NCBI RefSeq assembly: GCF_016924755.1
Contig: NZ_JAFFJX010000003.1
Location: 372,001-436,000, forward strand
Source: Longitalea arenae
GTDB taxonomy: Bacteria; Bacteroidota; Bacteroidia; Chitinophagales; Chitinophagaceae
Reading direction: 5' to 3'
Length of the DNA stretch: 64,000 bases
Shown here: in pieces, positions 1 through 61,651 of the stretch
How the letters are laid out: the number at the start of each line of letters is the position of its first letter
Position numbering within the stretch: the stretch's first letter is position 1
The notes under the pieces: model-generated
What the model saw: the letters and a program-made list of their open reading frames with translations, nothing else
The model's database searches: none
What the model was told of the DNA's origin: nothing
Position numbers and translations under genes: made by a program

Positions 1-722
1 GTTTTTTCCTTGCGGTGCAGGTATATGCAATATATAAGGGTAGATACAAAAGCCCCGGTATTTGAGAAAATGTAAACAATATTGATCTTAAAACTACCAC
101 TGCCATATTTGGCAGCCACTGCTGCAATCGGCTCCCCCTGATCAATCGAAAATCCGTACACCGCCGATAATACGCCTGCCAGAAAACACAACGGCAAACC
201 TTTGGCCAGTGAAAATGTTTGGCCTGTATCCTGGTTTATTTTCAGATCATGTTCCTTGAACCGGCCCGCCACGCCACAGCAGGCAATGCCCAACGCACCA
301 ATGATGATGCCGGCCATGATCCAGCTGGCGCCGTTCTGCGTGAACAAAGTGGCCAGTTGCCCATGCACCAGTGGTGGCAATAAAGTACCCAGCACACAGG
401 AAATGCCCACTGCAATCGCATAAGTCAATGAAAAACCCACATACCGGATGGCCATACCAAAAGCAGTTCCACCAATGCCGTATGCAACGCCATACACGAA
501 GGTTTTAACCATGGCATCGGTTGGCGCCTCCTGCAATACCCTGCCGATCTGCGGTATGGTTAACCAGGCAACAACCAGCGGTAATAAGAACCAGCAAACA
601 GCGGCCTGGGCCAGCCAATACGTTTGCCATGACCATTTCGCCACTTTTTTCTGCGGCGTGTAACACATGGCTGCACAGGAGGCCCCTACTGAATGATATA
701 AAACACCGGTTATTACTTCCAT
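1..722 (-). CDS. RhaT-like sugar:H+ symporter, partial (C-terminus beyond left edge)
   Basis: Membrane transporter of the drug/metabolite superfamily that resembles the L-rhamnose:proton symporter RhaT. The visible 240 residues open with a RhaT-like N-terminus (YTPQKKVAKWSWQTYW near residue 21), followed by alternating hydrophobic segments and a GIGGTAFGMAIRYVGFSL stretch that matches the RhaT GIGNxxYGLxxRYLGMS region. The start is the ATG at 722; no stop occurs before base 1. It is the last visible gene of the minus-strand operon that begins with MaoC at 5907, 156 bases after the amidohydrolase. A second, complete RhaT homologue lies at 52089-53180 inside the rhamnose operon, so this copy probably carries a different substrate, perhaps a sugar acid or lactone handled by the neighbouring enzymes. 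That substrate is inference. Confidence 0.8.
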   Translation of the reverse strand, partial: MEVITGVLYHSVGASCAAMCYTPQKKVAKWSWQTYWLAQAAVCWFLLPLVVAWLTIPQIGRVLQEAPTDAMVKTFVYGVAYGIGGTAFGMAIRYVGFSLTYAIAVGISCVLGTLLPPLVHGQLATLFTQNGASWIMAGIIIGALGIACCGVAGRFKEHDLKINQDTGQTFSLAKGLPLCFLAGVLSAVYGFSIDQGEPIAAVAAKYGSGSFKINIVYIFSNTGAFVSTLIYCIYLHRKEK

Positions 723-878
723 TGGTAAAGCACTCGTTATTTAATTGTCAAACACACATTAATGTTACAACACAGTCCGGGATAACTACCCGATCACCGT
801 ATAACGCAAAAAATAAGGATTTATCATAAGCTGTATTAACACTTTTGTATATATTAATACAGGTTTAATTTATTTCAA

Positions 879-1724
879 TCACAGACTATAAAAGGCGACG
901 GCATTGCCATACACCGCTTTTTGCAAGGCAGCGTCGGGCAATACATCAGATAACACTTTCATATACTGCTGCCAGGTTTGTTGATAGGTTCCCGCCAGTA
1001 AACTTACAGGCCAGTCGCCGCCACAGCAAACGCGGTTCTCGCCAAAATGCTCCAGTACAAATTCAATATATGGTTGAATATCGTCGGTGGTCCAACTGCT
1101 GCCTTTTTTGGAGCAGGTACCCAGCCCTGATATTTTAACGTAAAAATTCCGGTGCGAAGCGGCTGCTTTCATCAGTTCCCCCCATTCGCCAAAGCGTTCA
1201 CCGCTGGCAATGGGCGGCTGGTTCAAATGATCGAGCATCAGCCTTAGCTCGGGCACTTTCTGGGCCACTTCCAACGCTGTCAGCAAATGCTGTGGTGTAA
1301 CGCCTACCACATCGTAGGGCACATCGTAGGCTGCCAGCACAGAAAGGCTTTGGGTCACCGCCGGTTGTAGTAACCATCGAGGATCAGGTTCATCATGTAT
1401 CAGGTGGCGCACGCCTTTGAAATAGGGATTGCCCAGGTATTCTTTAAGGGCGGTTGCTGTGAAGGAGGGATCCTGTAAAGGCATCCAGCCCACCACCCCT
1501 TTTATCCATCCGGTTGCATTGGCAACCTCTAACATCCAGTTGGTATCTTCAAAATTATTGGCCGCCTGCACCAGCACGCCGCCGGTAATGGCGGTCTTTT
1601 CCACTTCGGCCTGTAATTCTTCTATGTCATAATTCCGGTTAAGAATAGAGGTATCGTTCTTTAACCACTCGTACTCGGCTTTTGCAAAATTCCATATGTG
1701 AACATGGGTATCGATAATGTCCAT
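879..1724 (-). CDS. Amidohydrolase (COG3618), L-fucono/L-rhamnono-lactonase type
   Basis: TIM-barrel metal-dependent hydrolase of the amidohydrolase-2 family, 281 residues, the usual length. The metal-binding HxH motif is at residues 7-9 (IDTHVHIW), with the family signatures GVLVQA, GWMPLQDP, GVRHLIHDEPDPRWL and CCGGDWPVS in order. Close relatives open sugar 1,4- or 1,5-lactones such as L-fuconolactone, but 2-pyrone-4,6-dicarboxylate lactonases share the fold, so the exact lactone is not fixed by sequence. No signal peptide; cytoplasmic. It lies between a CaiB/BaiF CoA-transferase (123 bases upstream) and a RhaT-like transporter, on the same strand. Confidence 0.85.
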   Translation of the reverse strand: MDIIDTHVHIWNFAKAEYEWLKNDTSILNRNYDIEELQAEVEKTAITGGVLVQAANNFEDTNWMLEVANATGWIKGVVGWMPLQDPSFTATALKEYLGNPYFKGVRHLIHDEPDPRWLLQPAVTQSLSVLAAYDVPYDVVGVTPQHLLTALEVAQKVPELRLMLDHLNQPPIASGERFGEWGELMKAAASHRNFYVKISGLGTCSKKGSSWTTDDIQPYIEFVLEHFGENRVCCGGDWPVSLLAGTYQQTWQQYMKVLSDVLPDAALQKAVYGNAVAFYSL

Positions 1725-1847
1725 AGCAATCCGTTTGATATCGAATATTGATTAATGATCAGGGAAGCCGCAAGATACATGGCAAAATTCTCAAATAAGG
1801 AATTTTCACCAATCACCATTAATCAACAAGTGGCTTCTGCTGGTTAT

Positions 1848-3011
1848 TCATAATTCGATATTGGATGTTTTCAGGCCAAACTGTAATTCTATCTGTTCAT
1901 TATGTTCACCGAGCAGCGGCGCGCCGATGTCGGAAGTATATAACTCACCGTCGATCCGGATCGGACAACGCGTAGTCGTTATAGAAAGCCCGTTACTGGT
2001 CTTAACCTTTAATTCCATATTCAGCATCTGATAGCCGTTCTCCTGCACCAGGGTATCGTAATCGAGCACTTTAGCGCACCAGATATCGGCGGGTTCCAGC
2101 ACGGCGAGCCAGTCTTCGGTTTTGCGGCTGAGTAAATGTTCCGCCAGGATCGTTTTTATTTCATCGCGCTTTACAAACCACTCGGCGGTATTGGTAAACT
2201 GCTGTAACGCGTCGCATTGCAGCAGGGTTGCCAGTTGTACAATATTACCCATGGCCAGCGCCAGGTAACCATCGGCTGTTTTATAAATACCATAGGGGGC
2301 CGACAAATACGCATGTCCATTATTGATCTCGCTGCGCACCGGCAGTTCGCGGCCATCATTATAAAAACAAGTGAGCACTTCAAACTGAAAATCGAGGATC
2401 GATTCCAGCATACTTACCTGTACCAGGCTTCCTTCATTGGTTATGGTCCGCTGGTATAAGGCGGCCAAAATACCCTGGGCAATATGGGTTCCTGCCAGAA
2501 TATCAACAACCGCCACGCCCATGGGGGTAGGATTATCACTGCGGTTGCTGCTTAGCCAGGTCAAACCTGATACGGCCTGCAATAAGAGGTCCTGACCCGG
2601 CAGGTCTTTCCAGGGCCCTTCGTTACCATAGCCACTTACTTCGGCATAAATGATCTGCGGGTTAATTGCTTTCACCGTTTCATAATCCAGGCCCAGCCTT
2701 TCCATTACACCGGGGCGGAAATTATGCAACAGCACGTCTGCCTGGGCAATCAGTCTTTTCACTTTCTCCAGCTCCTCTTCATTCTTCAGGTCAGCCGCAT
2801 AACTTTGCTTATTGCGGTTGATGGCATGAAAAATGGTAGACTCCCCTTCTATCATCACATTCGATACATACAATTGCCGGCAGATATCGCCTACGCCCGT
2901 CCGTTCGACCTTGATCACCTGCGCCCCCATATCGGCCAGTCGCAAACCAGCCGATGGGCCAGATAAGAACTGGCTAAAATCGACAACAATGATATCTTGT
3001 AAGGGTTTCAT
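1848..3011 (-). CDS. CaiB/BaiF family (class III) CoA-transferase, second copy
   Basis: Family III CoA-transferase, 387 residues, cytoplasmic. It would move CoA between carboxylic acids through an aspartyl-CoA thioester. The N-terminal pattern ([19 protein letters not shown], then QVIKVER), the [15 protein letters not shown] block and [18 protein letters not shown] are family hallmarks. The candidate catalytic Asp is residue 170 in [10 protein letters not shown], the position expected from formyl-CoA transferase (Asp169). The protein is clearly paralogous to the preceding gene at 3146-4294; by eye more than half of aligned residues match. Such pairs can arise by duplication and may act as a heteromer. 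The spacer to the upstream copy carries a GGTAACC-type inverted repeat. Confidence 0.88.
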
Positions 3012-3042
3012 TACTAATTTAACAATTTGTGACTTTTGCAGC

Positions 3043-3131
3043 AGTTACCGGTTTCCGGTTGCCAGTTCCCGGGTCCCTGTTCTCAATGTCTTTGTTTTCC
3101 CCGGTAACCGGAAACTGGTAACCGGCAACCG
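3043..3131. repeat. GGTAACC-family inverted repeat between CoA-transferase genes
   Basis: Two blocks of about 30 bases (3043-3073 and 3099-3131) built from GTTACCGG / CCGGTAAC words face each other, so the RNA can fold into a long imperfect hairpin. The same word family recurs at 16019-16067, 47844-47939 and 6467-6540. It lies inside an operon and has no clear T-run, so it looks like a dispersed repeat or mRNA-stability hairpin rather than a terminator. Confidence 0.7.
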
Positions 3132-3145
3132 AATCGATTCAACAC

Positions 3146-4294
3146 TCACTTTCCTTTGATCAGTTCCTTATTTATCGCCTCCGTATGCTCTCCCAACTGC
3201 GGAGCCGGTTTCGATGAATACAAGCGTTCCCCATTGATACGGATGGGACAACGGGTAGTTGTTATACTTTTTCCCTTCGATGTGGTGATCGTTTGCTCCA
3301 TTTGCAAACAGCTATAAGCCTCCTGCTCCGTCAATCTCTTCCAATCGAGCACTTCCATGGCCCAGAGATCCCTGGCATGCATTTTTTGGAGCCATACCGA
3401 AGAAGGCTGGGTTAACAGGTGTTTTGCCAGCACTGATTTTATTTCATCCCGTAAACTGAAAGCAACTTTCTGGTCATAGGCCATCAGTTCGTTACACCCT
3501 ATGGCTTTCGCCAGTTGCTTTATATCTACCATCGCTATGGCAATATGCCCGTCGGCCGTGGCGTAAATGCCGTATGGCGCATGTAATAACGGATGCCCGT
3601 TATTCACTTTGCTGCGTTTGGGCAGTTTGCCACTGCTATGGTAGGTAGTTAATAATTCAAATTGAAAATCGAGCAGGGATTCCAGCAGACTGATCTCTAT
3701 TAATGCCCCCGTGCCGGTCTTATGTCTTCTTATCAATGCACTTAAAATACCCTGTACCAGTTGCGAACCGCATAAGTTGTCGGCAATGGCCAAACCAAAA
3801 GGCATGGGATTGTCTTTGGCATTACCGGTGGTGTAGGCCAAACCGCTCATCGACTGCAACAACAGGTCCTGCCCCGGGCGGTTCTTCCAGGGGCCTTCTT
3901 TTCCATAGCCGCTGATAGCGCCATAGATAATACGAGGATTGATCTTTCTTACTTCGGGATAGCCCAGACCTATCTTCTCCATAATACCAGGCCTGAAGTT
4001 GTGGGTGAGCACATCTGCTTTTTCAATCAGCTTCTTTACCAAAACCAGGTCTTCCGGATTCTTCAGATCGGCTGTATAACTTTCTTTATTGCGGTTGATG
4101 GTATGAAACAGCAGGGAGCTGTCATCGGTCCAAAGGTCTTTGATAGATAAGCGGCGGCAGGCATCTCCACCCTGCGGACGTTCCACTTTTATGACGCGTG
4201 CCCCCAGGTCGGCCAAACGCAACCCGGCCGAAGGCCCGGATAAGTACTGGCTGAATTCCAGTACCAGCAATCCCTGTAAAGGCAATCGACTCAT
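3146..4294 (-). CDS. CaiB/BaiF family (class III) CoA-transferase, first copy
   Basis: Family III CoA-transferase of 382 residues, paralogue of the next gene. It shows [19 protein letters not shown] followed by RVIKVERP, NFRPGIMEKIGLGY and SGYGKEGPWKNRPGQDLL. The expected catalytic Asp is residue 172 in FGLAIADNLCG. The start codon overlaps the stop of the upstream solute-binding-like gene by four bases (ATGA, 4291-4294), so the two are translationally coupled. With MaoC upstream, this points to a route in which a carboxylate is activated by CoA transfer and then hydrated or dehydrated. Its substrate cannot be read from the sequence. Confidence 0.88.
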   Translation of the reverse strand: MSRLPLQGLLVLEFSQYLSGPSAGLRLADLGARVIKVERPQGGDACRRLSIKDLWTDDSSLLFHTINRNKESYTADLKNPEDLVLVKKLIEKADVLTHNFRPGIMEKIGLGYPEVRKINPRIIYGAISGYGKEGPWKNRPGQDLLLQSMSGLAYTTGNAKDNPMPFGLAIADNLCGSQLVQGILSALIRRHKTGTGALIEISLLESLLDFQFELLTTYHSSGKLPKRSKVNNGHPLLHAPYGIYATADGHIAIAMVDIKQLAKAIGCNELMAYDQKVAFSLRDEIKSVLAKHLLTQPSSVWLQKMHARDLWAMEVLDWKRLTEQEAYSCLQMEQTITTSKGKSITTTRCPIRINGERLYSSKPAPQLGEHTEAINKELIKGK

Positions 4295-5457
4295 ATTGAC
4301 AAGCTCATTTTTTCGCCCTTGCGGCTTTGTTGATAAATGCGGTCTATCTCTTTCAGCACAGTTTCAGGGTTTCCGCCCTGTAACAAATATTGTTGAACCG
4401 GGTCGCCGGCATGATCCTGGAAATGAAGGTACCCATTATATCGCGGGCGCATGTAACCATTCTTCATCACCGGCAATACGGTATGGAAAAAGCTGTTGGT
4501 AAGCAGGTTCGCCATATTGTTCGTCCATGCCGCCAGATGCCCCGGTTGCCCGCCATGCTGCACATAAAAAGTTGACTGACACTCTTCACTGCAAACCCAG
4601 GCTGCAAATTCAACGGCTTCTTTTTTATGTTTAGTATAAGACGATACGGCCAATCCGGTGCCGCCAATCGTACTCCGCAACCGTTTTTTGCCAAAATGAA
4701 CCAGGTTGGCATAGGTCAGCAGGTGTTTCGCATATCCCAGCCTGGCATAGTTCGAATAGCAATAAGCGAAAGGACAATACCAGTAATCATTGGTAGTTGT
4801 CATTAACTCTGCCACCTGAATGGGATTACAGGAAAACAGTTTTTTATCGATGAGCGAATACAGCTCGCGCATGGTTTGCAAAACCTGTACGCCGGTCTCT
4901 TTACTGATCACCTGGTCCCTGCTTCGGAAAGGTTCTTCTCCCAGGGCAATACAAAACATATAAAAGTTCATCAGGATATCGATGGGAATCGAAGGTATGG
5001 CCACCCTGCCTGCTTTGGCCAGGGCGATCAGTTCGTCCCAGGTATCGGGCACGGCTACACCGTTCTGTTGAAAGAGGTCGGCCCGGTAACTGGCAGCAGG
5101 CGTAGCGGCATCGATGGCCAGCGCCCACTGATGATTGTCGTAGTAATAGCTTATATGTGATTCCCCTACCGTATTGCTCGACTGGTTATGCAGGTAAGCG
5201 GCCGGTAAGTATTCGTCTAAAGGTAATACACTATTTGTAGCTGCTGCGCAGCCTACCCAGGGGTGATCGATGATCAGCAGGTCATAATCGTTTACCAGTT
5301 TCTCGAGGGGAAAATCGGCAAACTCCTGTAAAGTCCTTTTTTTCCATTGTATGGTCACCTTCGGGTTAAGCTCCGAAAAGCGCTGGGCTGCAGCCAGCAA
5401 GGGGGTTATGCCTCTGCTGTGTCCCCAGGTAATGCCATTCAAAACGATTTCAGACAT
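4291..5457 (-). CDS. Family 1 solute-binding-protein homologue lacking a signal peptide
   Basis: Protein of 388 residues with the fold signatures of ABC-transporter family 1 binding proteins (COG1653): an N-terminal GxTxxHxxG-like strand, VTIQWKKRTLQEF, the YDLLIID strand, DTWDELIALAKAG, and a C-terminal HKKEAVEFAAWVCSEECQ block. Unlike true extracellular binding proteins it begins directly with MSEIVLNGITWGHSRG: no signal peptide, lipobox or N-terminal membrane helix. No ABC permease or ATPase gene is in the operon. Six bases separate it from MaoC, and it overlaps the CoA-transferase gene by four. I infer a cytoplasmic ligand-binding or scaffold role tied to the CoA enzymes. Alternatively it is exported by a non-classical route. 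Confidence 0.75.
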   Translation of the reverse strand: MSEIVLNGITWGHSRGITPLLAAAQRFSELNPKVTIQWKKRTLQEFADFPLEKLVNDYDLLIIDHPWVGCAAATNSVLPLDEYLPAAYLHNQSSNTVGESHISYYYDNHQWALAIDAATPAASYRADLFQQNGVAVPDTWDELIALAKAGRVAIPSIPIDILMNFYMFCIALGEEPFRSRDQVISKETGVQVLQTMRELYSLIDKKLFSCNPIQVAELMTTTNDYWYCPFAYCYSNYARLGYAKHLLTYANLVHFGKKRLRSTIGGTGLAVSSYTKHKKEAVEFAAWVCSEECQSTFYVQHGGQPGHLAAWTNNMANLLTNSFFHTVLPVMKNGYMRPRYNGYLHFQDHAGDPVQQYLLQGGNPETVLKEIDRIYQQSRKGEKMSLSI

Positions 5458-5463
5458 AAATTC

Positions 5464-5907
5464 CTAACTTTCTTTTTTATTTACCAACAGAATGTGTTCA
5501 CAGATCATTACCAGTTCGCCGTGTTGGTTAAATACTTCTACCAATTCGGTCACCAGGCCATACCCTGGTTTCTTATGTTCTTTTTTATCAGATATGGTGA
5601 CAGTGGCTTTGATCGTGTCGCCAATAAAAACAGGCTTAATGAAACGGAGCCTGTCGTACCCATAGGTCATGGACACTTCGTTAATAACATGTGCTGTTAA
5701 TCCAACGGCAATGGTAAAGATGAGGGTACCGTGGGCGATGCGCTTTTTAAAGGGTTGGGTCTTACACCATTCTTCATCCATATGATGGGGGAAGAAATCG
5801 CCGGACTGGCCTGCATGAATAACGATATCTGTTTCGGTGACCGTGCGTCCGCCGGTTGACCGTTTTTCGTTCAGTTCAAATTCTTCAAAATATTTAGTAA
5901 TACCCAT
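5464..5907 (-). CDS. MaoC-family (R)-specific enoyl-CoA hydratase/dehydratase
   Basis: Single hot-dog-fold hydratase of 147 residues, a normal length for one-domain MaoC proteins. The catalytic signature is [12 protein letters not shown] with Asp37 and His42, matching the SGDxNPxHxD hydratase-2 motif, followed by [14 protein letters not shown], the usual AHG...G helix. It would add or remove water on an enoyl- or hydroxyacyl-CoA. It is the first gene of the minus-strand operon; the 5' side is the long non-coding stretch 5908-6787. Acting with two CoA-transferases, it defines the cluster as CoA-thioester chemistry (for example of a mesaconyl- or itaconyl-like acid); the substrate is unknown. 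Confidence 0.87.
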
Positions 5908-6466: not shown

Positions 6467-6540
6467 ACCGGTTACCGGTTACAGGTTTCAGGTTACAGGT
6501 TACAGGGTACAGGGTACAGGGTTACAGGGTCAAGGGTACC
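6467..6540. repeat. GGTTACAG / GGGTACAG short-word repeat
   Basis: About nine near-tandem copies of an 8-base word (GGTTACAG drifting to GGGTACAG) in non-coding DNA. It belongs to the same GGTAACC word family seen elsewhere in the window, but in direct orientation. Confidence 0.75.
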
Positions 6541-6704: not shown

Positions 6705-6752
6705 TAAAAAATGAAACAACCGTTTGCGTGTTCCTTTTCCGAATGAAGGCTG

Positions 6753-6760
6753 TAAGTTTG
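6753..6760 (+). promoter_or_regulatory. -7 promoter element for the sugar kinase operon
   Basis: TAAGTTTG is an exact match to the Bacteroidota -7 consensus TAnnTTTG. It lies 28 bases before the ATG at 6788, which argues that translation starts there and not at the in-frame ATG at 6728, upstream of this element. No clear -33 TTTG at ideal spacing. Confidence 0.5.
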
Positions 6761-6787
6761 AAAAAACCACGATTCAACAGACGATCC

Positions 6788-7846
6788 ATGTTCAATAATA
6801 TTTTAACCCGGTATGGCCTCAACCCTGATCTTTATACGATACAACCATTTGGCAGCGGCCTGATCAACCACACCTGGAAGATCAGCAAACCGGATGGCCG
6901 GCCCTGTTATATTCTGCAAAAGATCAATACTGCCGTATTTAAAGAGCCCGAAGCGATTGCCGCCAATATCGAACGCCTGGGCAGCTATTTACAAGCGCAT
7001 GCACCAGCTTATCTTTTCGCGGGGGCACTGCCAACGGCTGCCGGTGAATACCTGTGCCGGAACGAAAAAAATGAGTATTTCCGGCTTTTCCCATTCATAC
7101 CCCGGTCGCATTCCATAGATATGGTGAATAGCCCTGAGCAGGCTTTTGAAGCAGCCCGCCAGTTCGCCCGCTTTACCAACCTGTTGAGCGGGTTCGATGC
7201 CAGCCTTTTACAGATCACCATACCCCAATTCCATGACCTGTCATTGCGGTACCAGCAGTTTCTTACCGCCCTGGCGCAGGGAAATCCTTTTCGCATCGAG
7301 GACGCTGCCGGACTGATCACCTATTTACAAGACCAGCAACACCTGGTTGAAACCTATGAGCGCATTAAAAAAGATCCGGGCTTTACCCTGCGGGTGATTC
7401 ACCACGACACGAAGATCAGCAATGTGCTGTTTGATGAACATGATAAAGGTTTATGTGTGATAGATCTCGACACGGTAATGCCAGGTTATTTCATCAGCGA
7501 TGTAGGCGACATGATGCGTACCTATTTATCGCCCGCCAATGAAGAAGAAAAGGATTTCCAGCAAATAAGCGTCCGGGATGAATTCTTTAGCGCCATTGCC
7601 AAAGGCTACCTGGGTGAAATGCAGCATGTTTTAAGTGCTGCCGAAAAAAAGCACTTTGTATATGCCGGCCAGTTCATGATCTATATGCAGGCTTTGCGTT
7701 TTTTAACAGATCATCTCAACAATGATGTATATTACGGCGCCCGCTACGATGGACATAACTTTATAAGGGCACAAAACCAGGCAGTGCTGCTGCAACAGTA
7801 CACTGCGAAGGAAGAATTGTTTAACGAAATTATTTCAACCATTTAA
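6788..7846 (+). CDS. APH-fold sugar kinase, N-acetylhexosamine 1-kinase (NahK)-like
   Basis: Aminoglycoside-phosphotransferase-fold kinase of 352 residues. It follows NahK of bifidobacteria along its length: PFGSGLINHTW (glycine-rich loop, residues 20-30), YILQKINTAVF, the catalytic loop HHDTKISN at 205-212 and the metal-binding IDLDTVMPG from 225. NahK phosphorylates N-acetylhexosamines at C1; related Bacteroidota proteins may use other sugars, so the substrate is tentative. An in-frame ATG at 6728 would add 20 basic residues but lies before the likely -7 element, so 6788 is preferred. The sugar transporter gene follows after one base, which indicates an import-and-phosphorylate operon. Confidence 0.82.
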   Translation: MFNNILTRYGLNPDLYTIQPFGSGLINHTWKISKPDGRPCYILQKINTAVFKEPEAIAANIERLGSYLQAHAPAYLFAGALPTAAGEYLCRNEKNEYFRLFPFIPRSHSIDMVNSPEQAFEAARQFARFTNLLSGFDASLLQITIPQFHDLSLRYQQFLTALAQGNPFRIEDAAGLITYLQDQQHLVETYERIKKDPGFTLRVIHHDTKISNVLFDEHDKGLCVIDLDTVMPGYFISDVGDMMRTYLSPANEEEKDFQQISVRDEFFSAIAKGYLGEMQHVLSAAEKKHFVYAGQFMIYMQALRFLTDHLNNDVYYGARYDGHNFIRAQNQAVLLQQYTAKEELFNEIISTI

Positions 7847-7847
7847 C

Positions 7848-9155
7848 ATGACTACTGCTAAAACGCTGGTTGTTCCCATGAATGCCCGGCGCACCAACAC
7901 AACAGCGATTTTCATCATCGGTTTTCTGTTCTTTATCTTTGGCTTCATTACCTGGTTGAACGGCAGCCTCATCCAGTTCTTAACACTGGTTTGCCAGCTG
8001 GAAAGTGATGTACAGGCCTTCTTTGTGACCTTTGCTTTTTATATGGCCTATTTTTTCCTGGCCATACCATCCTCCGTTATTTTAAAACGCACCGGCTTTA
8101 AAAAAGGAATGGCGCTGGGTTTACTGGTCATGGCCATTGGTTCATTGATCTTTATTCCGGCCGCTAAGGAAAGAAGTTTTGGTCTCTTTCTCACCGGCCT
8201 GTTTATTCAGGGAATGGGACTGGCGTTGCTGCAAACGGCTTCCAATCCCTATATCAGTATTATCGGGCCTATCGAAAGCGCCGCCCAACGCATCAGCATC
8301 ATGGGTATTTGTAATAAGATCGCTGGCATCAGCAGCCCCCTGATATTAAGTGCCCTGCTTTTAAAAAATGCCAATAAACTGGAAGAAAATATCAATAAAG
8401 CCACGAGTCTTGCTGAAAAGGAAGAGCTATTGAACGCATTATCAGCCCGGGTGATCAATCCTTATATCGTTCTGGCCGTAGTGCTGGCTGTGCTGGCTTT
8501 CCTGTTACTGAAGTCACCACTGCCGGAGCCACCGGCTGAAGAAGAAGTGACTACTTCGACCAATGCAGCCACCAATAAAAAAAGCATCTGGGAATTTCCG
8601 CATCTGTTATTGGGCGCTTTATGTATCTTTTTATATGTGGGGGTTGAGGTAATGGCCGGTGATGCCATTGGGATATATGGTAAAGCCATGGGCATGCCAT
8701 TAGATGAAACCAAAAAGTTTACTTCCTTTACGCTCGCAGCCATGCTGGTGGGTTATATCATTGGCATATTTACGATCCCAAAGATCATTTCACAGCAAAC
8801 AGCGCTTAAGTTATCTGCCATCCTGGGAATTGTTTTTTCGGTTGCGGTCTTCCTTACAAGCGGTTATACCGCCATCACTTTTATTGCTTTACTGGGACTG
8901 GCGAATGCCCTCATGTGGCCTGCCATCTGGCCCCTGGCCATTGACAAACTGGGCAAATTCACCAAAACAGGTTCTGCCCTGCTTGTTATGGGCATTGCCG
9001 GTGGCGCCATAGTTCCCTTAATATATGCATCGCTTAAAAAAGAAGACGGTTTGAACATGCCTAACCACTGGGCCTTCTTCATTTGTATGCTGCCCTGTTA
9101 TTTGTACATTCTATATTACGCGATCCAGGGGCACAAAGCAGGAAAGAAAATGTGA
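7848..9155 (+). CDS. FHS-family sugar MFS transporter (FucP/GluP/NagP-like)
   Basis: Major-facilitator permease of 435 residues with about twelve hydrophobic segments. It carries the fucose/glucose/galactose:H+ symporter signatures FGFITWLNGSLI near the N-terminus, IQGMGLALLQTASNPYIS with the QTxxNPY motif, and GVEVMAGDAIGIYG in the second half. It starts one base after the kinase stop, so the two are cotranscribed. The NahK-like partner makes an amino sugar a reasonable substrate, as for NagP, but glucose, galactose or fucose fit the same family. The 3' end runs into a GATAAT-word repeat. Confidence 0.87.
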   Translation: MTTAKTLVVPMNARRTNTTAIFIIGFLFFIFGFITWLNGSLIQFLTLVCQLESDVQAFFVTFAFYMAYFFLAIPSSVILKRTGFKKGMALGLLVMAIGSLIFIPAAKERSFGLFLTGLFIQGMGLALLQTASNPYISIIGPIESAAQRISIMGICNKIAGISSPLILSALLLKNANKLEENINKATSLAEKEELLNALSARVINPYIVLAVVLAVLAFLLLKSPLPEPPAEEEVTTSTNAATNKKSIWEFPHLLLGALCIFLYVGVEVMAGDAIGIYGKAMGMPLDETKKFTSFTLAAMLVGYIIGIFTIPKIISQQTALKLSAILGIVFSVAVFLTSGYTAITFIALLGLANALMWPAIWPLAIDKLGKFTKTGSALLVMGIAGGAIVPLIYASLKKEDGLNMPNHWAFFICMLPCYLYILYYAIQGHKAGKKM

Positions 9156-16014: not shown

Positions 16015-16018
16015 AATG

Positions 16019-16067
16019 GGTTACCAGTTGCCAGTTACCGGTAACCGGTAACTGGTGACCAGTAACG
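16019..16067 (+). repeat. GGTAACC-family hairpin in the araB-araD gap
   Basis: The core 16032-16054 is an 11-bp perfect inverted repeat (CAGTTACCGGT, one centre base, ACCGGTAACTG), extended on both sides with a few mismatches. There is no T-run behind it, so it is not a typical terminator; it fits an mRNA-processing or stabilising hairpin. Confidence 0.8.
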
Positions 16068-47797: not shown

Positions 47798-47843
47798 TAG
47801 GAAGCTATTATCACTCACTTTTACATTCGAAAGCCTGTTGAGC

Positions 47844-47939
47844 TGTTACCGGGTACCGGTTACCAGTTACCGGGGAGCCCGTTAAGCTAGAAGTTGCCAG
47901 TCAACAGGCCCCGGAAACCGGGAACTGGTAACCGGCAAC
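47844..47939. repeat. GGTAACC-family inverted repeat in the rhaI-kinase gap
   Basis: Words CTGTTACCGGGTACCGG / TTACCAGTTACCGG on the left (47844-47876) face CCGGAAACCGGGAACTGG / TAACCGGCAAC on the right (47910-47939). A long imperfect hairpin can form inside the operon. Same family as 3043-3131 and 16019-16067. Confidence 0.75.
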
Positions 47940-57826: not shown

Positions 57827-58164
57827 ACCCCCCCGGCCTTAGGCCCTTAACCCTGATCCCAAATCACCCGTAAAGCGGCTTAATGAGCTTTATCTCCTTT
57901 ATTACTTACATTGACTGGTCAACCACTGAACTCATAAGACTTTTAGCATTCACTCTCCTTTCTGTTTCACACTTGCGAACGGGGTTACCTTAATTTTATC
58001 AACCCTATTAACGCATTAACTGGTCATTTGCCAATCTGTTAACGTGCCCCATCAATTTTATCAAGTCAACCTATTAGTTTCCCCTACACGTTTAAATTAA
58101 AATTTCATGAACAGTGGTACATTTACCAAATCTGTCAAGTTTATCAACATTATCAACTCATCGA

Positions 58165-58528
58165 CTTGCCTCCTTTCCTACCCGTTAATAAAAGCATGCT
58201 TCCTGGCGTTACCGCTATCAACGTTGTGAACTTAATCAACCAGTCAACTGGCCGCCTTGCCTCCTTTCCTACACGTTAATAAAGCATGCTTCCTGGCTGT
58301 TACCGCTACCAACGCTGTGAACTTAATCAACCAGTCAACTCGCCGCCTTGCCTCCTTTCCTGCACGTTAACAACGCAAGCCTCCTGGCTATTACCGCTAC
58401 CAACGCTGTGAACTTTATCAACCAGTCAACTCGCCGCCTTGCCTCCTTTCCTACACGTTAACAACTTAAGCTTCCTGCTGTGTTACCGTGTTAACGCTGT
58501 CAACTTATCAACTTGTCAATTCTTCAAT
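58165..58528. repeat. 91-bp tandem repeat array
   Basis: The marker CCTACACG (or one-base variants) sits at 58177, 58268, 58359 and 58450: exact 91-base spacing three times. Each unit carries CTTGCCTCCTTTCCTACACG near its start and ATCAACCAGTCAACTCG near its end. Unit 4 (58438-58528) is diverged, and a weaker unit precedes the array (marker at 58083). As 91 is not a multiple of three and stops occur in each unit, it is non-coding. Confidence 0.9.
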
Positions 58529-61471: not shown

Positions 61472-61556
61472 TTTGCAGTTGATCCATTAGGAACTGCCCC
61501 TGACCATGGCCGCCATTTATAACTGTATCAGCACAACCTGTCCCGCTCCGCGGGAT

Positions 61557-61651
61557 CAGCAAATCAGCACATCAGCACATCAGCAAATCAGCACATCAGC
61601 AAATCAGCACATCAGCAAATCAGCACATCAGCAATTAGCACATCAGCAAAT
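61557..61651. repeat. 8-bp tandem repeat CAGCACAT / CAGCAAAT
   Basis: About eleven near-perfect copies of an 8-base unit alternating CAGCACAT and CAGCAAAT, in the 187-base convergent spacer between the PLD gene and the YdjM-like gene. Confidence 0.9.

Follow-up and report, generated by a model that had tools for sequence, protein, structure and literature searches.

Why should a protein with the fold of an exported sugar-binding protein, itself lacking an export signal, be encoded among enzymes of coenzyme A (CoA) chemistry? The question is raised by an operon of Longitalea arenae (Bacteroidota; assembly GCF_016924755.1) at the left end of the window, i.e. the whole stretch of 64,000 nucleotides analysed here (contig NZ_JAFFJX010000003.1, positions 372,001 to 436,000), wherein a MaoC-type hydratase, a solute-binding protein (SBP) termed SBP_A, two type III CoA-transferases (CoAT1 and CoAT2), an amidohydrolase and a RhaT-like symporter are encoded in turn. 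A sequence-only reading had recognised here a six-gene operon on a single strand with its first three genes tightly packed, and both points agree with the open reading frame (ORF) coordinates and the Pfam families: the MaoC and SBP_A genes are 6 bases apart, SBP_A and CoAT1 overlap by 4 bases, and the later gaps measure 134, 123 and 156 bases. We propose, with a probability of about 60%, that the operon is one copy of a conserved module for catabolism, whose MalE-type SBP has turned cytosolic and acts jointly with an enoyl-CoA hydratase and a CoA-transferase of type III. In Bacteroidota, the module could provide a CoA-dependent branch for an acidic or deoxy sugar of the rhamnogalacturonan-II (RG-II) type, although both this substrate and the function of the SBP are what we infer from context. 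No description of such a module was found in the open-licence literature searched.

The absence of an export signal in SBP_A is determined by its reading frame. The open frame comprises 390 codons for 388 residues, leaving only two codons ahead of the called ATG, and the base sequence places the TAG stop of the MaoC gene in the SBP_A frame two codons before that ATG. Therefore, a longer start, and hence a signal peptide, is impossible; the sequence-only reading, which had described the protein as leaderless, had itself named a longer true start with a signal peptide as what would overturn it. The window protein is 96% identical to the SBP of Longitalea luteola, and for the 69 SBP_A copies compared (the window's included) we counted the open residues before the first-strand motif under any start, a leader test independent of the start chosen: at most 14 are available in 32 copies and 15-20 in 17, while the remaining 20 could be longer on paper, so that leader absence in these depends on the start chosen. 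Annotators too picked short starts in all 10 annotated plasmid loci. By contrast, leader-like N-termini, judged by eye as all N-termini were, are found in the control transport SBPs of loci L058, L063, L064 and L102 and in three exported SBPs that match SBP_A distantly, whereas for the transport SBP of L100 the annotated start gives a shorter N-terminus.

Nor was a transport partner found for SBP_A, in agreement with the earlier claim that it lacks one. Its own genome encodes five BPD_transp_1 permeases, on five contigs and none of them on the operon's contig (C33), of which two are Opp/Dpp-like, one is nitrate-type and two are without a model match at 1e-15; a MalFG-type permease pair was detected neither near SBP_A nor elsewhere in this genome, so that the permease/ATPase pair beyond the window, against which the sequence-only reading had also guarded, did not appear. 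Likewise, relatives of MalF/MalG or RbsA/RbsC occur in none of 56 Bacteroidota loci (BLAST at 1e-8 with one query of each). Where rhizobial loci do contain an ABC importer, as some do, this importer comes with an exported SBP of its own. SBP_A thus shares the fold and the Pfam family of ABC-importer SBPs, while a signal peptide or lipobox and a cognate permease/ATPase were not found, and the labels carried by annotated records, extracellular solute-binding protein or ABC transporter substrate-binding protein, are contradicted by the missing leader. Although it shares family and predicted fold with exported SBPs, it is very improbable that SBP_A is an ordinary ABC-importer component whose leader was missed, or which takes another export route, and whose transporter genes lie elsewhere; the closed frame and the missing permease relatives in the 56 loci and in its own genome largely refute this reading. 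We infer instead that SBP_A is cytosolic.

The fold of SBP_A is predicted to be MalE-like. The AlphaFold2 model (39 sequences) reached a pLDDT of 93.3 and a pTM of 0.90, the top ten Foldseek matches to it are SBPs of sugar transporters (TM score 0.82 to 6dtq), and the 50 matches shown are all SBPs save one titled as a toxin fragment, which we read as a maltose-binding protein fusion. The same predicted fold, at a TM score of about 0.82, is that of the sugar SBPs of ABC importers (SBP_bac_1, MalE/TMBP type; 6dtq, 1eu8 and 6j9w), from which SBP_A differs in lacking an export signal and, in Bacteroidota, any ABC partner found. Across the 69 SBP_A sequences, which reach down to about 30% identity and whose starts were set at the closest candidate no more than 16 residues from the motif, so that their short N-termini are partly by construction, the invariant residues include W11, H13, R15, D64, H65, D116, R125, Y232, Y234 and Y237, as well as G265-G268 with T267, Q304, R337 and R339. 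The alpha-glycoside-binding protein of the 6j9w series, presumably from Thermus, provides a comparison, since the titles of its structures name the mutants D118A, W287A and R356A: in an alignment at low identity, Asp118 and Trp287 are replaced in all 69 SBP_A sequences by Ala118 and Thr267, respectively, whereas Arg356 is kept as Arg337, and other His, Arg and Asp residues have become invariant. R49, the fourth residue mutated in that series, falls outside the alignment printed. The ligand site thus seems to have been rebuilt and then frozen, a pattern that suits a new ligand or catalysis, although it is not proof of either.

SBP_A and its association with CoA enzymes recur well beyond Longitalea. 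SBP_A is present in 16 of 296 sampled Bacteroidota genomes (1e-10) and in 38 loci among named genome contigs. Plasmid records matching it number 254 at 1e-5, ordinary exported SBPs included; among 60 of these rows sampled down the ranking, 34 are family members (at least 29% identity, E 3e-47 or better) and the remaining 26 are ordinary SBPs (21-25% identity, E 5e-8 or weaker), with no row between the two groups, and to judge from these similarities the SBP_A family is sharply bounded. For the neighbourhood comparison, 68 loci were searched with a fixed, chosen query set (BLAST, 1e-8), namely the 38 from named genome contigs, 15 from sampled genomes and 15 from plasmids; five more plasmid records were taken for the module or MaoC and three as controls. 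L049 and L074 carry the same SBP sequence and are both counted in the 68 loci and the 69 sequences. A CoA-transferase lies within 60 bp of SBP_A or overlaps it in 58 of the 68 loci, overlaps in GC-rich loci being inflated by the longest-frame rule; it is further off on the same strand in four (L051, L052, L061 and L083) and absent from the locus in six. Counting the named-genome loci only, 33 of 38 have a CoA-transferase. A MaoC or crotonase-type hydratase occurs somewhere in 59 of the 62 loci having a CoA-transferase; L032 ends before MaoC, and L059 and L060 are without MaoC in the locus, yet their sister strains have one about 19 kb from the SBP. The neighbourhood search proposed by the sequence-only reading therefore finds the gene set widespread.

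These loci span Bacteroidota, Alphaproteobacteria and Streptomyces, and their organisation is variable. The order is SBP_A then CoA-transferase in Croceibacterium and in those Bacteroidota loci where the two genes adjoin, and the opposite in the rhizobial, Azospirillum and Streptomyces loci. Two distant CoA-transferase lineages (FastTree) and two unrelated hydratase folds, MaoC or crotonase, pair with SBP_A, and the Rhizobium sp. Q54 locus (L061) combines an SBP from the rhizobial group of MaoC type with a nearby crotonase and a CoA-transferase of the other lineage. The link of SBP_A to CoA enzymes is, as far as sequence comparison tells, one of function more than of inherited order. The number of CoA_transf_3 genes (E 1e-40 or better) is exactly two in each of the 16 SBP-positive genomes, CoAT1 and CoAT2 being the only ones found in the L. 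arenae genome, whereas among the 280 SBP-negative genomes 48 have any and five have two; Fisher tests on such counts overstate independence, as the 16 genomes come from four families (f1, f3, f5 and f23). It could be argued that each of these gene families is common by itself and that the cluster arose by chance or is decaying without a common function, a reading which has practically nothing left to it and is refuted by the recurrence in three bacterial phyla, the strong conservation and the two CoA-transferases in 16 of 16 genomes. The module is real and conserved.

A second leaderless protein, SBP_B, which has only marginal similarity to SBP_A (E 0.009), adjoins the second CoA-transferase in 12 loci that also hold SBP_A, and in eight of 12 SBP_B copies at most 14 open residues precede the motif. 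One Croceibacterium plasmid carries both SBP_A and SBP_B, while in the haloarchaeon Halostagnicola larsenii SBP_B is found among CoA-transferase, MaoC, Gfo/Idh, rhamnose mutarotase and amidohydrolase genes. Loci with SBP_B beside a second CoA-transferase or near MaoC are L055, L057, L062, L071, L076-L083, L097, L098 and L099.

What the module acts on is suggested by the genes around it. Left of the window, the RhaT-like gene is followed by a Gfo/Idh dehydrogenase, a 915-residue hydrolase with a leader-like N-terminus, SusC and SusD. The hydrolase is a GH138 enzyme, matching BPa0997 (6hze, 6hzf and 6hzg) over its full length at 51% identity (Foldseek row), with its E378 aligned to E361, the residue mutated in 6hzg, and the BPa0997 structures are titled as a GH138 enzyme targeting pectin rhamnogalacturonan II; the AlphaFold model of the neighbour is mediocre (pLDDT 69.8), so the identification is carried by the sequence match. 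A GH67/GH115-like glucuronidase, considered for the same gene on weak Pfam matches only, was replaced by this full-length match. Further left lie an apiosidase-family gene at C33:325111 (PF13204, 388.7 bits) and, at C33:317-351 kb, a BT_1020-like protein, a GH95 protein, three GH2-type proteins and, by reading only, SusC/SusD-like ORFs. The hydrolase families around the module are those of the RG-II utilisation loci of gut Bacteroides (GH138, BT_1020 and apiosidase), to whose RG-II set we take BT_1020 to belong. B. ihuae, the one Bacteroides control genome, has matches to the BT_1020-like family and none for CoA_transf_3. The wider region left of the window (G000:C33:296001-356000, L107-L109) is a large RG-II-type degradation region that also includes DUF6298 and genes resembling a four-carbon acid sugar kinase, PdxA and the DHDPS family.

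The same association holds among the 296 Bacteroidota genomes, wherein the BT_1020-like marker is found in 12 of 16 SBP-positive versus five of 280 SBP-negative genomes and GH138 in 11 of 16 versus three of 280. In all 12 marker-bearing SBP-positive genomes the marker is on the contig of SBP_A, 33-65 kb away; three of the 12 are single-contig genomes of 3.3 to 5.1 Mb, in each of which a marker would fall so close by chance with a probability of about 1.4 to 2.4%. Of the 38 genomes behind the named loci, 29 were searched for the marker and 26 have it, the three without it being L036, L041 and L045, all without a CoA-transferase in the locus. Based on the Gfo/Idh, GH138 and SusCD genes left of the window and the RG-II region, the gene context points to a plant pectin sugar rather than to the C5 dicarboxylates also listed for growth tests by the sequence-only reading. 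The core of that reading, wherein a lactone is opened, CoA is transferred, a hydratase step follows and the SBP acts inside the cell, survives and is sound in outline, but it misses the Gfo/Idh dehydrogenase, GH138, SusCD and the RG-II setting beyond the window edge.

The functions of the enzyme families allow a route to be proposed. Sugar oxidation is the usual task of Gfo/Idh and SDR enzymes, and the opening of sugar lactones that of COG3618 amidohydrolases; a type III CoA-transferase shifts CoA from one carboxylate to another through an Asp, and a MaoC or crotonase enzyme hydrates or dehydrates acyl-CoAs at C2-C3. On these grounds, the route could lead from sugar through lactone, sugar acid and sugar-acyl-CoA to a dehydrated product, each of its reactions being a projection from family function. 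First, a pectin-derived sugar may be imported, by the RhaT-like symporter here and by ABC importers in rhizobia, and oxidised to the lactone by the Gfo/Idh enzyme. The amidohydrolase would then open the lactone to the sugar acid, which the CoA-transferase(s) could convert to its CoA thioester, and MaoC or crotonase may dehydrate or hydrate this thioester, while SBP_A would act on, or present, the same sugar-acid ligand. In its boldest form, the proposal is that an acidic sugar specific to RG-II, with L-aceric acid as the most daring candidate, is degraded by an undescribed pathway through CoA thioesters and that SBP_A is a new SBP-derived enzyme; we regard this combination as unlikely, albeit worth stating. 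L-aceric acid is a branched sugar that gives a branched dicarboxylate when oxidised, and it is considered because the nearest CoA-transferases and MaoC hydratases handle substrates of the branched-dicarboxylate type. Given the RG-II link, a direct test of the substrate could be made with about a dozen known sugars.

Several observations weigh against this proposal. Five similar named-genome loci (L036, L040, L041, L044 and L045) hold SBP_A without a CoA-transferase in the locus, and CoA_transf_3 was not detected in four of the five genomes, whose assemblies are small (about 1.9-2.6 Mb) and are given without completeness values; the SBP_A of all five keeps every invariant residue. In L036, its neighbours are an MR/MLE (enolase-superfamily) enzyme, UxuA-like dehydratases, an RraA-like aldolase and a sodium symporter, i.e. 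a hexuronate-like cluster. From these loci it follows that SBP_A can probably work without CoA transfer. In one further genome (G286), a distance of about 60 kb, within which the RG-II marker falls, separates SBP_A, adjoining rhamnose genes (with a rhaD-type gene), from CoAT1, CoAT2, SBP_B and MaoC. On S. meliloti pSymB, MR/MLE, SDR and FAH genes share the neighbourhood of the module, the FAH protein scoring 427.5 of 500 bits against the 2,4-didehydro-3-deoxy-L-rhamnonate hydrolase model, and with such ordinary non-phosphorylative genes nearby the CoA step has no obvious gap to fill. A Halobellus locus, reached via MaoC, has related MaoC, CoA-transferase and IclR genes and no SBP. As to the substrate, the RG-II marker is missing in four of 16 SBP-positive genomes and present in five SBP-negative ones, and among plasmid records with the module it occurs in one of 10 (Rufibacter), the search covering the plasmids only. 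Finally, the placement of the invariant residues in the cleft rests on a low-identity sequence alignment.

The S. meliloti neighbourhood resembles the non-phosphorylative L-rhamnose/L-fucose pathway, which runs through a dehydrogenase, a lactonase, an MR/MLE dehydratase, an SDR and an FAH hydrolase, several of these families accompanying the module there; we know of no CoA step and no intracellular SBP in that pathway. The idea that a CoA-transferase and crotonase replace the aldonate dehydratase fits Sinorhizobium pSymA and Streptomyces, and was rejected as it fails on S. meliloti pSymB, where the MR/MLE gene is present.

Three roles can be weighed for a cytosolic SBP_A. The one we favour, at slightly less than even odds, is that of a binding protein turned enzyme, for which there is precedent, for which the SBP outlives the loss of the CoA-transferase, and for which ionisable residues are invariant. 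The precedent for a passage from SBP fold to enzyme is cyclohexadienyl dehydratase, an enzyme evolved from an arginine SBP (PMC7683729), whereas catalysis by SBP_A is argued from invariant polar residues only and stays conjectural. The next likeliest role, to which we give roughly one chance in three, is that of a non-catalytic carrier or specificity subunit presenting the sugar acid to the CoA-transferase, perhaps in a complex. Such a partnership agrees with the adjacency of the SBP_A and CoA-transferase genes, which often overlap and occur in both orders, and with the pairing of two CoA-transferases with two SBPs in Rufibacter, two Persicobacter plasmids, Croceibacterium and nine Bacteroidota genome loci; it is at odds with the persistence of SBP_A in the four genomes without detected CoA_transf_3, with the two CoA-transferases but one SBP in the window's genome and other Chitinophagaceae loci, and with the lack of any SBP-CoA-transferase fusion among the 68 neighbourhood loci. 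Frames of 742-745 residues in L058 and L063 had looked like such fusions and proved to be overlapping open frames in GC-rich DNA, the annotated genes being separate. An intracellular ligand sensor or buffer controlling the pathway or a regulator seems improbable: the SBP fold is a natural ligand switch, IclR or LacI genes are often near and IclR-type genes accompany several copies, but IclR and LacI proteins generally bind effectors themselves, and the conserved pairing is with enzymes. If the favoured proposal is true, a cytosolic SBP beside CoA enzymes would be an SBP-derived enzyme of a new kind or else supply a CoA-transferase in a novel manner, and it is kept in Bacteroidota, Alphaproteobacteria and Streptomyces, with a second kind also in a haloarchaeon.

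Table 1. Genes of the operon in the window, in order of transcription, with their Pfam scores.
Gene product	Length (residues)	Position in window	Strand	Pfam match
MaoC/PaaZ-type hydratase-dehydratase (first gene of the operon)	147	5464..5907	minus	PF01575, 87.1 bits
SBP_A, leaderless SBP-fold protein	388	4291..5457	minus	PF01547, 47.7 bits; PF13416, 43.6 bits
CoAT1, type III CoA-transferase	382	3146..4294	minus	PF02515, 327.7 bits
CoAT2, type III CoA-transferase	387	1848..3011	minus	PF02515, 324.8 bits
Amidohydrolase 2, probable sugar lactonase	281	879..1724	minus	PF04909, 159.3 bits
RhaT-like sugar/H+ symporter	240 of 345 inside the window	3..722, cut by window edge	minus	PF06379, 135.3 bits (window part)

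In the CoA-transferases and MaoC of the operon (Table 1) a probable catalytic Asp is kept, and the CoA-transferases and the amidohydrolase score under the cutoffs of characterised families. A CoA-racemase function was also considered as a candidate for the two CoA-transferases. Asp172 of CoAT1, whose equivalent we take to be the CoA-transferase nucleophile, is Asp in all 115 CoA-transferase rows and aligns with the Asp of 4hl6 and 4ed9. The dicarboxylate type III CoA-transferases acting on succinate-glutarate, oxalate and mesaconate are the nearest curated models and have this catalytic Asp in common with the CoA-transferases here, but the scores lie far under the equivalog cutoffs (for CoAT1, 227.8 of 750, 216.6 of 522 and 165.7 of 700 bits, respectively; CoAT2 likewise falls below). 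D37 of MaoC, presumably one half of its catalytic Asp/His pair (D37 and H42), is kept in 55 of 55 MaoC rows, and H42 is present in the window protein and lies outside the columns conserved in 95% of these rows. The closest solved relative of MaoC is 4ffu (184 bits), labelled only 'oxidase'; proteins related to it also occur in the module as found in S. meliloti. The amidohydrolase, which we assume to be COG3618-like, matches 4dlf in the PDB and scores 145.7 bits against the L-fucono-1,5-lactonase model, under the NCBIfam equivalog cutoff of 400. The RhaT-like protein, of which only 240 of 345 residues were scored, reaches 193.9 bits against the L-rhamnose/H+ symporter RhaT model, for which the equivalog cutoff is 468; its full ORF of 345 residues is at L002 15685-16722 in the genome.

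Some further features of the window were observed. Seven-base repeats of the GGTAACC kind occur at 3042-3131, 6469-6540, 16018-16061 and 47843-47934, with 18 matches to a 15-base pattern at up to two mismatches versus 0.14 expected, and one of these arrays sits between the CoAT1 and CoAT2 genes. The next genes after the operon, on the plus strand at 6728-9155, form a sugar-use pair of their own, namely an MFS transporter of the glucose/galactose type (NagP-like) and a kinase of the APH family. Tandem arrays are found at 58153-58519 and 61555-61651, comprising a 91-base unit repeated four times and 8-, 16- and 24-base units in up to 12 copies.

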